DNA from: Candidatus Manganitrophus morganii
GTDB lineage: Bacteria > Nitrospirota > Nitrospiria > SBBL01 > Manganitrophaceae
Assembly: GCA_021651055.1 (NCBI GenBank)
Contig: JAJHOH010000001.1
Coordinates: forward strand, 558,001-622,000
DNA: 64,000 nt
Direction: 5' to 3'
Under the pieces are notes generated by a model, which did no database searches, had not been told where the DNA came from, and was given only the letters and a program-made list of their open reading frames with translations. The translations under genes were made by a program, and so were the position numbers. Positions 37,562-45,217 of this stretch are shown here, piece by piece. Numbering within the stretch: position 1 is the first letter of the stretch; each line of letters opens with the position of its first letter.

Positions 37562-38272
37562 TTACTTTGTCTGAACCAGACTTCCCTTCAGCCTGCGACC
37601 CCAAATCCCGATCGCGATCATTCCGAAACCGAGCAACAAAAGGGTCGTCGGTTCGGGAACCACCGCCGTATCGGTGACCGCCACGGCTCCTCCGCCCTGC
37701 GTTCCTGAGAAGGCCGTTCCGGAAGTCGTGGGCGAGGCGCCGAAGAAGATCTGGACCTGGGCAACCGATCCGCCGATCGGGGGGTTGTTAAAGTTCAGCG
37801 CCGCAGCCAGCGTCGGATCGACGTAGGCGATATCGAGAAGGCCGCTGAAAGAAGAGACCAGAACCGGCGAGCTCCCCGAGCAGCAAGCGAATGTGGAGGT
37901 ATCGGCGAAGTCGGCCTGCATGAGAAGAACCGAGCCCGACCCGACATCTCCGTAGATCGTCACCGATCCGCCCGCTGCATAGACGTTCTCAAACCCGGTC
38001 GCCGTCGCACCGCCGCCGATCAGGTTTCCGGTGGCGAAGTCGATGTCCCCGCCTGCAATGGCGAGGGTCGTCGAACCATTTCCGACCGAGGTCACCGCCC
38101 CGTTCGTCGTCATAAACGCACTCTCCCCGCCCGCGTAAGAGACCGTCCCGCCGTATCCCAAGTTAAACACGATGGGAACCGCCAGCGCAGGGGAGCTGAA
38201 GAGCAATGTGAGCGAAGATAACAAGAGCGCACTCAAGATTGCCATCCGGAATTTCCGCTTTAGATTCATCAT
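37562..38272 (-). CDS. PEP-CTERM sorting-domain protein, paralogue 1
   Basis: 236 residues. The signal peptide (about 1-31) ends ALA before VPIVFNLGYGGTVSYAGG, a segment shared almost residue for residue with the next gene. The CC pair appears as FACCSGSSP. The tail is VPEPTTLLLLGFGMIAIGIW followed by GRRLKGS. It is the promoter-proximal member of the tandem pair, 55 bp behind a sigma-54 promoter element. Secreted and processed at the inner membrane by exosortase, inferred from the tail. The exact cargo role is unknown. Confidence 0.9.
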   Translation of the reverse strand: MMNLKRKFRMAILSALLLSSLTLLFSSPALAVPIVFNLGYGGTVSYAGGESAFMTTNGAVTSVGNGSTTLAIAGGDIDFATGNLIGGGATATGFENVYAAGGSVTIYGDVGSGSVLLMQADFADTSTFACCSGSSPVLVSSFSGLLDIAYVDPTLAAALNFNNPPIGGSVAQVQIFFGASPTTSGTAFSGTQGGGAVAVTDTAVVPEPTTLLLLGFGMIAIGIWGRRLKGSLVQTK

Positions 38273-38326: not shown

Positions 38327-38342
38327 AGCAAAGCACATGCCA
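38327..38342 (-). promoter_or_regulatory. sigma-54 promoter of the PEP-CTERM genes
   Basis: Read on the minus strand: TGGCATGTGCTTTGCT, with GG and GC at the exact -24/-12 spacing of the RpoN consensus TGGCAC-N5-TTGC. It stands 55 bp before ATG 38272. PrsR carries the GAFTGA sigma-54 contact motif, so promoter and activator agree. Confidence 0.85.
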
Positions 38343-38448
38343 CACAGCAATATGGAAAAAACATTATACCTAAGACATTGATTTTTAAAATATAATTTAC
38401 TCTCTTCACCTCGAACACTTTCGAAGGATTTTAAACCCGGAAGTGAGA

Positions 38449-38465
38449 GTGTCAACTTTTCCGTC
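38449..38465 (+). promoter_or_regulatory. upstream activator box 1 (likely PrsR site)
   Basis: GTGTCAACTTTTCCGTC, about 110 bp upstream of the sigma-54 promoter. It differs at one base from the box at 38548-38564. Paired upstream sites are what a sigma-54 enhancer-binding protein needs. Confidence 0.65.
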
Positions 38466-38547
38466 TCTTAGGAATCGATTTAGAAAGGGGCTTTATAATA
38501 ATTTCTTTAAAAATCAGTTACATCGGATAAATAAGGGGAAGGAAGAG

Positions 38548-38564
38548 GTGTCAACTTTTCGGTC
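38548..38564 (+). promoter_or_regulatory. upstream activator box 2 (likely PrsR site)
   Basis: GTGTCAACTTTTCGGTC, 99 bp from box 1 and about 8 bp outside the prsR stop codon. Same strand and one mismatch. Confidence 0.65.
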
Positions 38565-38571
38565 GGCGGTC

Positions 38572-39969
38572 TTACGTTCGATCGATTTTGTGCTTTGAAA
38601 GAATATCGTGGAGGGCCTGCCGTGAAATTCCAAGGACGGATGCCGCCTGGGTGACATTTCCCCCCAGACGCGCCAATGCCTGCTCTACTAACTCCCGCTC
38701 CAGCTTTTCTCTTGCCACCTTGAGCCTGGGAAGGGGCGCGGCTTCATTCGGTACGGCCAATTCCAGGTCTTCCGGGGCTAAATGAACCCCGTCGGTCATC
38801 ACGACCCCCCTCCTGACCTTGTTTTCCAGTTCACGGACGTTGCCGGGCCAGGAATGGGCCGTGAGCGCCTCAACGGCCGCAGGGGTTAACCCTTTGACCT
38901 TCTTCCCCGTTTCTTCCGAAAAACGGGCGATGAAGGCACGGGTGAGAACGAGAAGATCCCCGTTTCGCTCACGTAACGGGGGAACCGAAATAGAAACGAC
39001 CCCTAACCGATAAAAAAGGTCTTCTCGGAAAGCGCCGCTCGCCATCCTCTCCTTCAGATCGCGATTTGTCGCGGCAATCACCCTCGCGTCGATATGAAGA
39101 CTCTCCCTTCCGCCAACCCGCTCAATCGTCTTCTCCTGAAGAAAACGGAGCAGCTTCACCTGAAGGCCCAATCCAAGCTCTCCGATTTCGTCCAGAAAAA
39201 GGGTCCCCCCCGCCGCATATTCGATCCGGCCCTTCCGCTGCGCGTGCGCCCCCGTGAACGCCCCCTTTTCATGGCCGAAGAGCTCGCTTTCCAAGAGGTT
39301 CTCCGGAATCGCGCCGCAATTGATCGCGATAAAAGGACCGGCCTTCCGGGCGCTATGCTGATGGATCGATTGAGCGACCAGCTCTTTCCCGGTGCCACTC
39401 TCGCCGGTAATGAGAACAGGGATATCGGTCGTTGAAACTTTGCGGATCGTCGCGTAGAGCCCTTCCATCACCCGGCTGGTGCCGATCATCCCTCCCTCCT
39501 GGGTCGGGCGTTTCTTTAATTGACGATTCTCCTCTTCCAACTGAAAGAGGTGAATCGCCCGCCGGAGGGTTACCCGGATCTCGTCGAGATCGATCGGCTT
39601 GGTGAAGAAATCATAGGCCCCTTGCTCGATCGCCTTGAGGGCATTCGCCCGGTCGGAGTTGCCGCTGACAATGACAATTTTGACCCGGGGGTCGATCTCC
39701 AGCATTTCGGAGAGGGCCAGCAACCCCTCCGTCGCCTCTCGGGGATGAGGCGCCAGGCCGAGGTCGAGGGTCACCACCGGAGGGAGCTCCCGCCGGAAAA
39801 GATCGATCGCGCCCCTTCGGTTCTCGGCCAAAAAAATCTCATACTCGTCGGCCAGGGCCCATTTCATCTGTTGGCGGATCGTCTCATCATCATCGACGAT
39901 GAGGATCTTCGGACGAGATGAACCAGGGGGTAGGGGGCTGGGTGTAGGGGGTAGGGTCGATGATGACAT
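38572..39969 (-). CDS. prsR: PEP-CTERM-box sigma-54 response regulator PrsR
   Basis: 465 residues. Receiver domain (about 20-140, [29 protein letters not shown]), AAA+ domain (about 165-395) with Walker [13 protein letters not shown], the GAFTGA loop KGAFTGAH that contacts sigma-54, and Walker [12 protein letters not shown] Fis-type helix-turn-helix follows at the end ([20 protein letters not shown]). Residues 5-16 ([12 protein letters not shown]) are encoded by the left arm of a repeat element and are not expected in the family. Next to prsK but separated from it by a four-helix-bundle gene. Confidence 0.92.
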
Positions 39970-40354
39970 ACTATTTTTGCCCCTTTGACAAAGAGTCGAT
40001 CAGGCTGCTCAACATTTTGGATATTTCTTCCTGGAGTGAGTATAATGCATCGAAATTTTCGGGATCGATCATTTTCAGATCTTTAGATAATGACAACAAC
40101 GTCTCGAGTTCACCGCAGGAACCTAAAGCGACATGTAAAAACTGGATGTATTCTTTTCGTCCTCTTCTTCGGTATCCTTCCGCAATATTGCAAGGGATGG
40201 AAACGACCGCCCGCCTCATCTGAGAGATTAAACCAAACTTCTCCTCGGAGGGAAAAGCATACGTCGCTTGATACACGCGCAAAGAAAGCGCATACCCCTT
40301 CTGATAAACAACCAAGTCTTTATAACTTTTTATCTTTCCCACCCCCTACACCCT
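39924..40354. mobile_element. repeat-flanked four-helix-bundle unit, copy B
   Basis: G-rich arm 39924-39957 (GGGTGTAGGGGGTAGGG type) and C-rich arm 40338-40354 (CCACCCCCTACACCCT) face each other around the four-helix-bundle gene. The left arm encodes residues 5-16 of PrsR. The prsK stop codon TAG lies inside the right arm. Read as an element, it was inserted at the prsK/prsR junction. Arms A and C elsewhere lack the gene. Confidence 0.6.
39971..40342 (-). CDS. four-helix-bundle protein (S23/IVP family)
   Basis: 123 residues: SYKDLVVYQKGYALSLRVYQAT, FGLISQMRRAVVSIPCNIAEGYRR, EYIQFLHVALGSCGELETLLSLS, and a final helix. These are the four helices of the 23S rRNA intervening-sequence protein family (also found as Avd beside diversity-generating retroelements). 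No reverse transcriptase or 23S gene is nearby. It shares the prsK/prsR orientation and is embedded in the repeat arms. Its biochemical role is unknown. Confidence 0.88.
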   Translation of the reverse strand: MGKIKSYKDLVVYQKGYALSLRVYQATYAFPSEEKFGLISQMRRAVVSIPCNIAEGYRRRGRKEYIQFLHVALGSCGELETLLSLSKDLKMIDPENFDALYSLQEEISKMLSSLIDSLSKGQK

Positions 40355-42466
40355 GTCTTTTCGCCCCACCGGCAGGATCACCCGAAAAGTGGTCCCGACC
40401 CCCTCCTCGCTCTCCACTTCGATTTTACCGTGATGCGCTTCCACAATTTTCTTCGTATGAAACAGACCGATCCCGAGCCCCTGACTCTTTGTGGTTTGAA
40501 ACGGCTGGAAAAGAGAGCGCTCGATAAATTGTTTCGAGATGCCGCAACCGTTATCGCTGACGGAGAAAACGACGCACTCTTCCGTCCGGTCGGTCTCGAT
40601 CCGGATAACCCCCTTTTGGTCGGCCGCTTCGTTTGCATTGAGGATAAGATTCACGATCACCTTCTGGACCTGGTCGGGATCGATCATGCACTTCGGCAAC
40701 GTCTGAAGGTTTTTCTCCACCGTCGATTTGACCGATCCATTCATCCCTCCCAGGGTGGAGGCGACCAATTCATTTAGATCGACTTCAACACACTGCAGCT
40801 CCATTTTTTTCGTCAAAAGGGAGAGCCGGCTGCACATGTCGTTCATTTTGGAGACGCTCTGGGAGATCACCCGCAGCGCATCGCTTCTAAATTCGGGATT
40901 ATCAAAATGGGCCGGCAGATTCCGCATCGTGAGCGAAAGCATCGATGCCAAATTTTTTAAGTCATGGATGAAAAAGGCCGAGAGGCTCTGAAACGCTTCC
41001 ATTTCTTTTGCTTTTAAAAGTTGCTCCGTCAGCTTCACATTCAGGAGACTCCCCGCCGCCTGATCGGCGATGGTTTTCAATAAATCGGCATCTTCCACCG
41101 AAAACCGCTCCTTGGTTACACGATGATTCAGGGTCATTACCCCCAGCAGTTTTCGGTTGGAGATGAGCGGAACGCAATAGCTGACTCGGGTCTTTTCAAA
41201 ATAACTTCCCTCCGCTTCTTTCAACCCCCTCAATTTTTCGTCTTTGGTTGAATCCAAATCAAACGGCACCGGGTGGGTGTTGATAAATGAGAGAAGCTCA
41301 TCCCATATTTTACCCTTATTTTTCAAATCCAGGATCCGGGCGTCGGAAAACACAGTAGACCCCCCGAAATAAATCAGGTTGGAACCCTCATCGACCAACC
41401 AGATCGTCACGGAGGGGGCGCCGAACGCTTCCGAAACCATCTTTGATACCGCGGAGCAAAGATCGTTTACATTCATCAACGAAGTGGTCTGTTGGGTAAA
41501 TGCCGTCCACTCCTTGCGATAATCGTAACGCGGCTGATAGAAGTTCCGGCTGATAAATCGCTTTAGCTCTTGCCGCAACTGATCGGAAAGAAGGATGGCC
41601 GTTAGGGCAAGGAGCGAAACAAAAACGAAAAAGGTGCCCAGGGGAATGGCCTGGTTCCCCCCAAAATAAGCGATCGCCTTCGCAAGGATACCGACCGTCA
41701 GAAGATAGGCCCCGACCACCACGACGGTAATTGAGTTGTAAAGCAATGTGCGTGAGAAATAAATATCGACATTGAGGAAGCGATTACGCAGGAGGGAGAG
41801 GATAATCAGGATATTCGCCACCAGAACTGCAAAAGAATTGATCGATTCCATCCCCGAATTAATTAATGAAAAGAGAAGGGTATGACTGACCGTATAAATT
41901 TGAACGGCAAAGAGCCCCCCGATCCCCAGGAGCATAAATTTGACCTGCCACCGCTTATTCCCCGTGGAAGCCCGGAGAGTCCCCTCCAGATTCATCAGTA
42001 TTACTACGGAAGCCAAAAGATAGAAAAGGTAAAAGGTATAACCGGACCATCCAAGCCGGACGATGGGAGATCCCCCTTCCTCCGGAAAAGCGGACACCAA
42101 GAGTGATTCCCTAAATAATACTGTCATTGAAAGCGGGAAGGTCAGAGAGAAGAGGATAAACCACTTCCACTTTGCCACCAGCTCTTTGTAATTCGAACGA
42201 CCGAAACTGAGGCTAAACAAAAACCAGCTTCCGGGAAGCATACTGGCCGCTGTCAGCCCCCAGGCGCCCCAATCGACCCTTTCCGAGGGAAGGGGGGTTC
42301 CCATCGCCATTCCGACGAAAAGCTCTTTAAAAGCCAGGGCGATCATCCCGAAAGAAAATACCCGGTGGACAAAGGATCGCCTGTCCTCAAGGAAGATGAA
42401 CAGCGCCAACCCGATACAGAGAAGGGCATTCAATAACGGGATAAAAGAGGGAAATATCATCATCAC
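40346..42466 (-). CDS. prsK: PEP-CTERM system histidine kinase PrsK
   Basis: 706 residues. About eight or nine membrane helices occupy residues 1-285, then a GAF domain (about 325-470) and a histidine kinase core. The H-box is AFFIHDLKNLASML (around residue 500), the N-box NLILNANEAAD, followed by VSDNGCGIS and GLGIGLFHTKKIVEAHHGKIEVES. It is the expected partner of PrsR and controls PEP-CTERM genes through sigma-54 promoters. Its stop codon lies inside the repeat arm, so the last few residues (KDRV) may derive from the insertion. Confidence 0.9.
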   Translation of the reverse strand: MMMIFPSFIPLLNALLCIGLALFIFLEDRRSFVHRVFSFGMIALAFKELFVGMAMGTPLPSERVDWGAWGLTAASMLPGSWFLFSLSFGRSNYKELVAKWKWFILFSLTFPLSMTVLFRESLLVSAFPEEGGSPIVRLGWSGYTFYLFYLLASVVILMNLEGTLRASTGNKRWQVKFMLLGIGGLFAVQIYTVSHTLLFSLINSGMESINSFAVLVANILIILSLLRNRFLNVDIYFSRTLLYNSITVVVVGAYLLTVGILAKAIAYFGGNQAIPLGTFFVFVSLLALTAILLSDQLRQELKRFISRNFYQPRYDYRKEWTAFTQQTTSLMNVNDLCSAVSKMVSEAFGAPSVTIWLVDEGSNLIYFGGSTVFSDARILDLKNKGKIWDELLSFINTHPVPFDLDSTKDEKLRGLKEAEGSYFEKTRVSYCVPLISNRKLLGVMTLNHRVTKERFSVEDADLLKTIADQAAGSLLNVKLTEQLLKAKEMEAFQSLSAFFIHDLKNLASMLSLTMRNLPAHFDNPEFRSDALRVISQSVSKMNDMCSRLSLLTKKMELQCVEVDLNELVASTLGGMNGSVKSTVEKNLQTLPKCMIDPDQVQKVIVNLILNANEAADQKGVIRIETDRTEECVVFSVSDNGCGISKQFIERSLFQPFQTTKSQGLGIGLFHTKKIVEAHHGKIEVESEEGVGTTFRVILPVGRKDRV

Positions 42467-42976: not shown

Positions 42977-45217
42977 ATGCAGACCTCATTAATCAAGCGA
43001 AGCGCTCTGATGATCATCGGGATGATCCTTCTCCTGAATTGGAAAACGCCTGCGATGGCTGCGGATGCCTCCCTCTCCTGGGACACCAACACGGAAAACG
43101 ATCTGGGAGGGTATAAACTCTATTATGGAACCTCCTCCGGCAGCTACGGCGCCCCCGTGGACGTCGGCAATCAAACATCTTTCACTGTAAACGGTTTAAG
43201 CAGCAGTCAGACATATTATTTTGCCGTTCGCGCATACAACACCTCGGGGGCGGAAAGCGGCTACTCTAATGAAGTCAGCAAGAGCTTCGGCGACACCGCC
43301 GCGCCGACCCTCTCCGCCATTGCGGCCGGCAGCATCACCAGCGCCGGAGCAACCGTCAGCTGGAGCACCAACGAAGCGGCCACCTCCCAGGTGGAGTACG
43401 GCGCCACGACCGCTTACGGCTCCCTCTCTGCGCTCAACTCAACGCTCGTCACCAGCCATAGCCGTGTGTTAAGCGGCTTGAACCCTTCAACGACCTATCA
43501 CTATCGGGTCATCAGCAGAGATGCCGCCGGGAACACCGGCACCTCGGGGGACCGCACCTTCACCACCACCGCCGCGCCCGACACCACCGCGCCGGCGATT
43601 TCCGGAATCGGCGCCTCGAATATCACCACCACCGCGGCCACGATCAGCTGGACGACCAATGAGAGTTCCGACACCCAGATTCAATATGGGACAACCACTT
43701 CGTATGGAAGCTCCACGACGCTCGATACCACCCTGACCACCAACCACAGCCAACAGGTCACCGGCCTTCTCCCCGCCACCCTTTATCATTATCGCGTCCG
43801 CGGCCGGGACGGCGCCGGAAATCTGGCCACCTCGGGAGATCGAACATTTACCACCGCCGCGCCCCCCGACACCACCGCGCCGACCCTTTCTAATATTGCC
43901 GCCAGCAACATCGCATCGACCTCCACGGTGATCACCTGGAGCACCAATGAAACGGCGACCTCCCAAGTCGAATATGGAACGACGACATCGTATGGTGCTT
44001 CCTCCGCATTGGGCGCCACGCCGGTCACCAGTCACAGCCGGACCCTTTCCAGCCTGAGCCCCGCCACCACCTACAACTACCGGGTCATCAGCCAAGATGG
44101 GGCCGGAAACATCTCGGTCTCCGGAAATAGAACCTTCACCACCTCCGCCACCCCCGATACGACGGCGCCGGTTCTCTCCGGTATCGCCGTGGGGAACGTT
44201 GCTTCCACTTCGGTTGTCATTTCCTGGAGCACCCATGAAGCGGCCACCTCCCAAGTGGAATACGGACCGACCACGGCGTACGGCTCTCTCAGCACATTAA
44301 ATACCACCCTTCTGGCCGCCCACAGCGCTTCGTTGACGAACCTCCAGCCGGCCACCACCTACAACTATCGGGTCATCAGCCGGGACGCCGCCGGAAACAC
44401 CGCCACCTCCGGGAACAATTCGTTTACAACGGCCGCCCCGTCATCTTCCGATACAATCGGGCCGGTTCTGTCGGCGATCGATGCGCGGGAGATGACCACG
44501 GAGGGGGTGACGATCCACTGGGGAACCGATGAGCCTGCAACAAGCGAAGTGGAGTATGGCCTGACCGCGGGATACGAAAACAGCACCGGGGTCAACGCCA
44601 CCCTGTCGAACAGCCACAGCCGGATCCTTTCCGGCCTCCAATCGAACACGGTCTATCACTATCGTGTCAAAAGCGCCGATGCCCTGGGCAATCTCTCCGT
44701 GTCGGCCGATCATACTCTCACGACAAACCCGCCCACCGATTCCACCCCTCCGGCGGACGTCGAAAACTTCACCGCCGTCCCGGGAACCCAGGTGATCACA
44801 TTAAGCTGGGTCAATCCGTCCGATTCCGACTTCGTCGGGGTCCGCATCGTCTACCGGACCGATCGGTTCCCGAACGGCACTGAAGACGGTGAGATCCTCG
44901 GGGACTTTTCGGGACGAACCGATGAGAGCATCACCGTCCTCCATGCAGGGTTAGAGGAGAACGTGACCTACTACTATTCGGCCTCATCGTATGATAACAA
45001 CGGGAACTATCAACACACGGCGCACGCTTCCGCAATGCCTTTCGGGTTTTCGACGGGCGCCTCGAATGCGGACGACGGCGGCGCTGGGGGCGGTGGCGGC
45101 TGCACGATGGTTTCGCCGAGCTCCGGAGCCGCTTCTGGACCGGGCCATTCGGCCGACATGATCGGGCTGATTCTGGTCCTCTCGCTTGCGGCGCTTCGGA
45201 AGGGAATCAAGAAATGA
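42977..45217 (+). CDS. secreted protein with seven fibronectin type III-like domains
   Basis: 746 residues. Signal peptide about 1-28. One FN3-like domain (about 30-108) is followed by five near-identical repeats of about 90 residues, each starting D-T-x-A-P and containing W-S/T-T-N-E... QVEYG... TYNYRVISRDAAGN. A sixth differing segment (about 590-690) follows. The C-terminus has GGAGGGGGC, then a hydrophobic stretch ending RKGIKK. A Gly-rich Cys-containing tail with a membrane segment is reminiscent of C-terminal sorting signals. Expression is under a c-di-GMP riboswitch, so it is probably a biofilm adhesin or scaffold. Confidence 0.88.
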   Translation: MQTSLIKRSALMIIGMILLLNWKTPAMAADASLSWDTNTENDLGGYKLYYGTSSGSYGAPVDVGNQTSFTVNGLSSSQTYYFAVRAYNTSGAESGYSNEVSKSFGDTAAPTLSAIAAGSITSAGATVSWSTNEAATSQVEYGATTAYGSLSALNSTLVTSHSRVLSGLNPSTTYHYRVISRDAAGNTGTSGDRTFTTTAAPDTTAPAISGIGASNITTTAATISWTTNESSDTQIQYGTTTSYGSSTTLDTTLTTNHSQQVTGLLPATLYHYRVRGRDGAGNLATSGDRTFTTAAPPDTTAPTLSNIAASNIASTSTVITWSTNETATSQVEYGTTTSYGASSALGATPVTSHSRTLSSLSPATTYNYRVISQDGAGNISVSGNRTFTTSATPDTTAPVLSGIAVGNVASTSVVISWSTHEAATSQVEYGPTTAYGSLSTLNTTLLAAHSASLTNLQPATTYNYRVISRDAAGNTATSGNNSFTTAAPSSSDTIGPVLSAIDAREMTTEGVTIHWGTDEPATSEVEYGLTAGYENSTGVNATLSNSHSRILSGLQSNTVYHYRVKSADALGNLSVSADHTLTTNPPTDSTPPADVENFTAVPGTQVITLSWVNPSDSDFVGVRIVYRTDRFPNGTEDGEILGDFSGRTDESITVLHAGLEENVTYYYSASSYDNNGNYQHTAHASAMPFGFSTGASNADDGGAGGGGGCTMVSPSSGAASGPGHSADMIGLILVLSLAALRKGIKK

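Follow-up and report, generated by a model that had tools for sequence, protein, structure and literature searches.

Control of PEP-CTERM surface proteins by the PrsK/PrsR/RpoN pathway was predicted in 2006 for Proteobacteria. Haft et al. reported, in Proteobacteria only, a 17-nt motif 1 that ends in TTTACA, is sometimes repeated and precedes a sigma-54 motif 2 (PMC1569441), and they proposed PrsR as the reader of motif 1 (PMC1569441). The spacer between the two motifs ranged from 32 to 92 nt with a mean of 62.8, figures that are statistics of the original set and not a stated criterion (PMC1569441). In Desulfovibrio vulgaris, the regulator DVUA0057 binds PEP-CTERM promoters (Rajeev et al. 2011, PMC3333781). 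In Aquincola tertiaricarbonis, the PEP-CTERM gene pepA is RpoN-dependent and has a predicted enhancer upstream (PMC9850573), and prsK and prsR mutants of Zoogloea are cited as having lost their flocs (as cited in PMC9012009). For the glnALG-type NtrC enhancer, helical facing may matter less, the activator and sigma-54 sites lying on opposite faces (review PMC7408454). In work on sigma-54 regulons from 2025 (PMC12316311), a search for PEP-CTERM or Nitrospirota found nothing.

Here we describe a 64,000-nucleotide stretch of the genome of Candidatus Manganitrophus morganii (hereafter the window), in which a region upstream of two PEP-CTERM genes is very probably a promoter of the PrsK/PrsR regulon that depends on an enhancer. 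The elements and genes are listed in Table 1. Read along the minus strand, the order is prsK, a small ORF, prsR, the distal box, the proximal box, the sigma-54 element and PEP-CTERM genes 1 and 2. Gene 2 is probably co-transcribed with gene 1, since the two share a strand, are separated by a gap of 45 bp, and gene 2 has neither a box nor a good sigma-54 site of its own.

Table 1. Promoter elements and neighbouring genes, in window positions
Feature	Position	Strand	Evidence
Sigma-54 promoter element, -24/-12, TGGCATGTGCTTTGCT	38327..38342	-	0 mismatches to TGGCAYGNNNNTTGCW
Proximal PrsR-type box (predicted), gene-orientation GACGGAAAAGTTGACAC	38449..38465	-	17/17 invariant
Distal PrsR-type box (predicted), gene-orientation GACCGAAAAGTTGACAC	38548..38564	-	16/17 invariant
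Sigma-70-like promoter TTGACA-N16-TAAAAT, overlapping the proximal box	38428..38455	-	11/12 consensus match
PEP-CTERM protein gene 1, 236 aa	37562..38272	-	PF07589, 26.5 bits (cut-off 20.7)
PEP-CTERM protein gene 2, 238 aa	36800..37516	-	PF07589, 30 bits
prsR, NtrC-family response regulator	38572..39969	-	TIGR02915, Pfam domains, sequence
prsK, membrane histidine kinase	40346..42466	-	TIGR02916, 457 bits

The initial annotation placed a -24/-12 element 55 bp before the first PEP-CTERM gene and two boxes 99 bp apart upstream of it, and both placements are borne out: the downstream end of the element lies 55 bp from the ATG at 38272, and the starts of the boxes are 99 bp apart. Nothing else in the window matches with 1 mismatch or fewer, and exact copies of TGGCAYGNNNNTTGCW number only 3 in the 4.29-Mb genome, this element included. 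The boxes (17 bp, GACSGAAAAGTTGACAC in gene orientation) are direct repeats in one orientation, and as written on the forward strand the proximal GTGTCAACTTTTCCGTC and the distal GTGTCAACTTTTCGGTC differ by one base. The proximal box starts 122 bp before the sigma-54 17-mer (11 helical turns), leaving a spacer of 105 bp, while the distal box starts 221 bp before it (20 turns), directly beyond the prsR stop codon. In an alignment of the orthologous promoters of three Manganitrophus genomes, the invariant positions given for the boxes in Table 1 are joined by 14/15 for the sigma-54 element, against 162/255 for the remaining intergenic region, and the boxes are more conserved than the latter (Fisher p = 1e-5).

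The arrangement is like that of Haft motif 1 and motif 2, with a 17-nt box, a spacer, a -24/-12 motif and a PEP-CTERM gene in that order, the sigma-54 motif (-24 GG, -12 GC) lying between box and gene, and with PrsK and PrsR as companions. It differs in its Nitrospirota host, in its core (TTGACAC instead of TTTACA) and in the length of its spacer, which exceeds the range of Haft et al. but differs from the shorter spacers by whole turns, keeping phase with them. In the order of the window, Manganitrophales, a tandem second box is common; helical phasing is not mentioned by Haft et al. The predicted operator is probably the Nitrospirota form of Haft motif 1 and not a new kind of operator, because the boxes of Smithella and Chromatiaceae (below) agree with the description of motif 1. 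The proposal of the initial annotation that these boxes are an operator of the PrsK/PrsR/RpoN pathway is upheld, in that the boxes recur with sigma-54 elements before PEP-CTERM genes of relatives, are oriented and conserved, and follow the layout of Haft et al., although such an operator had been described for Proteobacteria in 2006. Against it count the long spacer, the absence of boxes from all but one of the four other PEP-CTERM loci, and a good sigma-70 -35 element within the proximal box. The region resembles the DVUA0057 regulon, where the response regulator is the one that Haft et al. predicted to act at PEP-CTERM promoters; no binding-site motif was validated for DVUA0057 in that study, whereas the box in the window is a predicted site defined by comparison. 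It also resembles the RpoN1-dependent promoter of pepA in its PEP-CTERM gene, its -24/-12 promoter (mapped in pepA) and its predicted upstream enhancer, although the start site and rpoN dependence of pepA were measured and the promoter in the window is predicted from sequence. For the manganese-oxidising Manganitrophus lineage, the region would extend the PrsK/PrsR/RpoN control of PEP-CTERM surface proteins, with the exact bases named.

The regulators are encoded beside the promoter. PrsR scores 610.3 bits on TIGR02915 (cut-off 502.6), the only match above cut-off in the genome, and is 98% identical to PrsR of Candidatus Manganitrophus sp. GAC4; PrsK scores 456.6 bits on TIGR02916 (cut-off 300), and rpoN is present in a single copy. 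The Pfam domains of PrsR are a receiver, a sigma-54 AAA+ domain and a Fis-type HTH, as in NtrC-family enhancer-binding proteins, and the GAFTGA motif ascribed to it is present in its sequence. In the proposed mechanism, a signal that acts on PrsK, the membrane kinase, would lead to phosphorylation of PrsR, dimers of which would attach to both boxes by their C-terminal Fis-type HTH and form an AAA+ oligomer, probably aided by the second box. Looping of the DNA across about 11 turns would then bring phosphorylated PrsR into contact with the sigma-54 polymerase waiting at -24/-12, and the GAFTGA loop would open it, switching on the two surface proteins. The proposed layout resembles that of the glnALG-type NtrC enhancer, with upstream sites for an NtrC-family activator that loops to the sigma-54 polymerase.

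Boxes of this type recur in relatives. Among 52 upstream regions of Manganitrophales PEP-CTERM genes, 13 contain strong boxes (at least 11/12 core positions) as against 0.2% in shuffles, and strong sigma-54 sites are likewise far above shuffled controls. A profile built from 39 boxes finds 34 forward matches in 20 loci and 1 reverse match upstream of PEP-CTERM genes, and zero matches within the genes themselves; the lone reverse match belongs to a sigma-54 promoter of divergent orientation that has a box pair to itself. Because the forward sites of these same regions, with a few added from Chromatiaceae and Desulfobacterota, served to train the profile, these sites score themselves, but the scarcity of reverse sites is still informative. 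Tandem boxes are frequent at Manganitrophales PEP-CTERM genes, at spacings that differ from that of the window. In Smithella (Desulfobacterota) and Chromatiaceae, GTCGAAAnnnTTTACA occurs at PEP-CTERM promoters near prsR. The boxes of the window end in TTGACAC and their sister boxes in the order in TTTACAC, and the GTCGAAA..TTTACA boxes of Smithella and Chromatiaceae align to the same profile. In another Nitrospirota family (G048, G050; L109, L110, L121, L122, L138), near-palindromic boxes of the TGTAAAnnnnnTTTACA type are found at PEP-CTERM promoters, and these appear to be another version of the motif.

Within the M. morganii genome the recurrence is partial. Six PEP-CTERM genes are above the Pfam cut-off, namely the pair in the window and four at other loci. 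The initial annotation had staked its operator on recurrence of the box at other PEP-CTERM promoters of the genome, and the scan is divided: the exact 17-mer is found at the pair only, one of the four other loci has a degenerate pair, and the remaining three have no box. The box is therefore not limited to the pair, yet does not mark all PEP-CTERM genes. The exact 17-mer returned just the two known copies, so that probing for a genome-wide regulon required a degenerate consensus. The PEP-CTERM gene at 3,228 kb is preceded by the degenerate boxes GACGGAAATTCTGACAC and GCCGGAATGATTGACAC, in one orientation and 176 bp apart. It has no good sigma-54 site; the only candidate is TCGGCCCAGATTTTGTA, which is mostly kept in the genome G002 (box distance 125 vs 131 bp). 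Sigma-54-like sites without a box precede the genes at 1,037 and 1,617 kb, and neither element lies upstream of the gene at 2,182 kb. Elsewhere, a full-consensus box GACGGAAATCTTGACAC at genome position 1192520 (L003:1501-1517), kept in G002 and GAC4, precedes an SDR/queD operon; it has no sigma-54 site and was not counted as a target, and it may be a target or a chance -35 element. Degenerate matches at 2062158 and 4115990 lie inside ORFs and were not counted either.

We infer that PrsR reads the boxes, and the recognition helices of PrsR proteins offer a comparison. The Manganitrophus-type helix pairs with the box GACGGAAAAGTTGACAC, the helix SRPTLYEVMKKL of the second PrsR of G011 with GTCGGAAAACTTTACAC, the Smithella helix SRPTLYDLIEKL with GTCGAAATACTTTACAG, and the helix SRQLFRDLLNKY of G014 with GACGGAAATCGTACCAC. 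The box variant thus appears to track the helix, including between the two PrsR copies of one genome, in few cases that mostly follow clades, and this pairing lends support, without proof, to the view that PrsR reads the box directly. Two PrsR copies each are present in G011 (L099, L100) and G016 (L105, L106), with helices of the SRPTLYE/SRPSLYE type and the SRQAFHD type. In G014 (L101, L126, L220), where the PrsR helix is altered, the boxes near prsR are GACGGAAATCGTACCAC in place of those ending in TTGACAC, and another PEP-CTERM gene has TTTACAC boxes together with one GTACCAC box; this mixture at one gene suggests that two regulators may be at work there. The genome of M. morganii encodes about 20 other NtrC-like regulators that score below the PrsR-model cut-off, any of which might read the boxes if the adjacency of prsR were due to chance or history. 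We regard this as improbable, given that the box bases track the PrsR helix, that Haft et al. recovered PrsR and the motif by one phylogenetic profile, and that PEP-CTERM targets were hit in DAP-chip of DVUA0057, the regulator predicted to act on them in D. vulgaris.

In Manganitrophales, where distances of up to 150 bp were considered, the nearest box lies 65, 66, 77, 78, 88, 111, 119-123, 142 or 144 bp from the sigma-54 17-mer. Phase-blind test sets were collected by a pattern search that admits all gaps from 25 to 85. Among 399 Burkholderiales genomes, 59 promoters matched the pattern and 0 matched its reverse. Their distances form clusters at 65-68, 76-80, 87-92 and 98-100, leaving 45, 70 and 73 as the three outliers, and the best period is 11.05 (R = 0.78; 0/5000 jittered nulls), shared ancestry among the sites being not fully removed. 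The period is 11.0 (0/5000 nulls) when the dominant 76-80 cluster is left out; counting every distance value once gives P = 0.015, and with one site taken from each genome the median period is 11.25. The 7 non-duplicate sites in Desulfobacterota are in phase (p = 0.002), and the Manganitrophales phase equals that of Burkholderiales (p = 2e-5); without the 150-bp limit, the Manganitrophales distances give P = 0.0035, 0.0025 or 0.11, according to which box threshold is applied. Each of the two boxes in the window is at most half a base pair off the expected phase. Helical phasing of the box-to-box distance is weak (P = 0.06) and is not claimed.

The period of ∼11 bp matches the helical repeat of 11.1-11.6 fitted for looped DNA inside living E. 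coli cells; two data sets on lac looping in vivo gave 11.08 and 11.60 (PMC1762422). Whole-turn spacing in three phyla suggests how the activator reaches its promoter, the phase constraint pointing to a short, stiff loop. We think it likely that an 11-bp lattice of about 6 to 13 whole turns is kept in Nitrospirota, Burkholderiales and Desulfobacterota, that PrsR acts through short, torsionally constrained loops, and that genome comparison alone here yields an in-cell helical repeat, with Manganitrophales having a longer loop (often 11 turns, not 7) and a PrsR recognition helix that has been re-specified, and in many cases a second box. In contrast to glnALG, phase is kept across evolution in this PrsR-type box system. 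The spacing on a helical lattice is the new point and the one worth following: no report of helical phasing for the PrsR system was found in the literature searched. It provides a quantitative, cross-phylum signature that makes looping testable by half-turn insertions, and it sharpens the rule by which PrsR targets can be sought in further genomes.

The phasing of the boxes to sigma-54 sites also bears on whether they are -35 elements of ordinary sigma-70 promoters, the -24/-12 match being minor or unused. Each box contains TTGACA, and 16 bp beyond that of the proximal box lies TAAAAT, a -10 hexamer kept in GAC4 (TAAAAT) and nearly so in G002 (TAAATT). This explanation is very unlikely, as all 17 bp are conserved, GACGGAA included, the GTACCAC core of G014 is not a -35 element, and 34 boxes in relatives have no excess of -10-like hexamers 16-18 bp after TTGACA. 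The sigma-70-like promoter at the proximal box is probably incidental or basal, since the boxes of relatives lack a general -10 partner. That the repeats are chance or a functionless local duplication, as the mere two exact copies in the genome might suggest, is scarcely credible and already disfavoured by the comparative data: at up to 3 mismatches, shuffled versions of the window contain 0.27 boxes on average, conservation of both copies exceeds the background, and tandem boxes at other spacings recur before other PEP-CTERM genes.

The promoter with its PrsR-type boxes lies among further genes of note. The small ORF between prsK and prsR (39971-40342, minus strand) encodes a 123-aa protein of the S23 / 23S rRNA-intervening-sequence family (PF05635, E 2e-38). 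No S23-type motif was seen between prsK and prsR in GAC4 or other relatives, where the gap between the two genes is about 430 bp shorter than in the window. Two exosortase genes are present in the genome, one of them ∼10 kb past the window edge, beyond the polysaccharide genes at 47-64 kb. Divergent to prsK, a gene at 42977-45217 on the plus strand encodes a 746-aa protein with repeated fibronectin type III domains.
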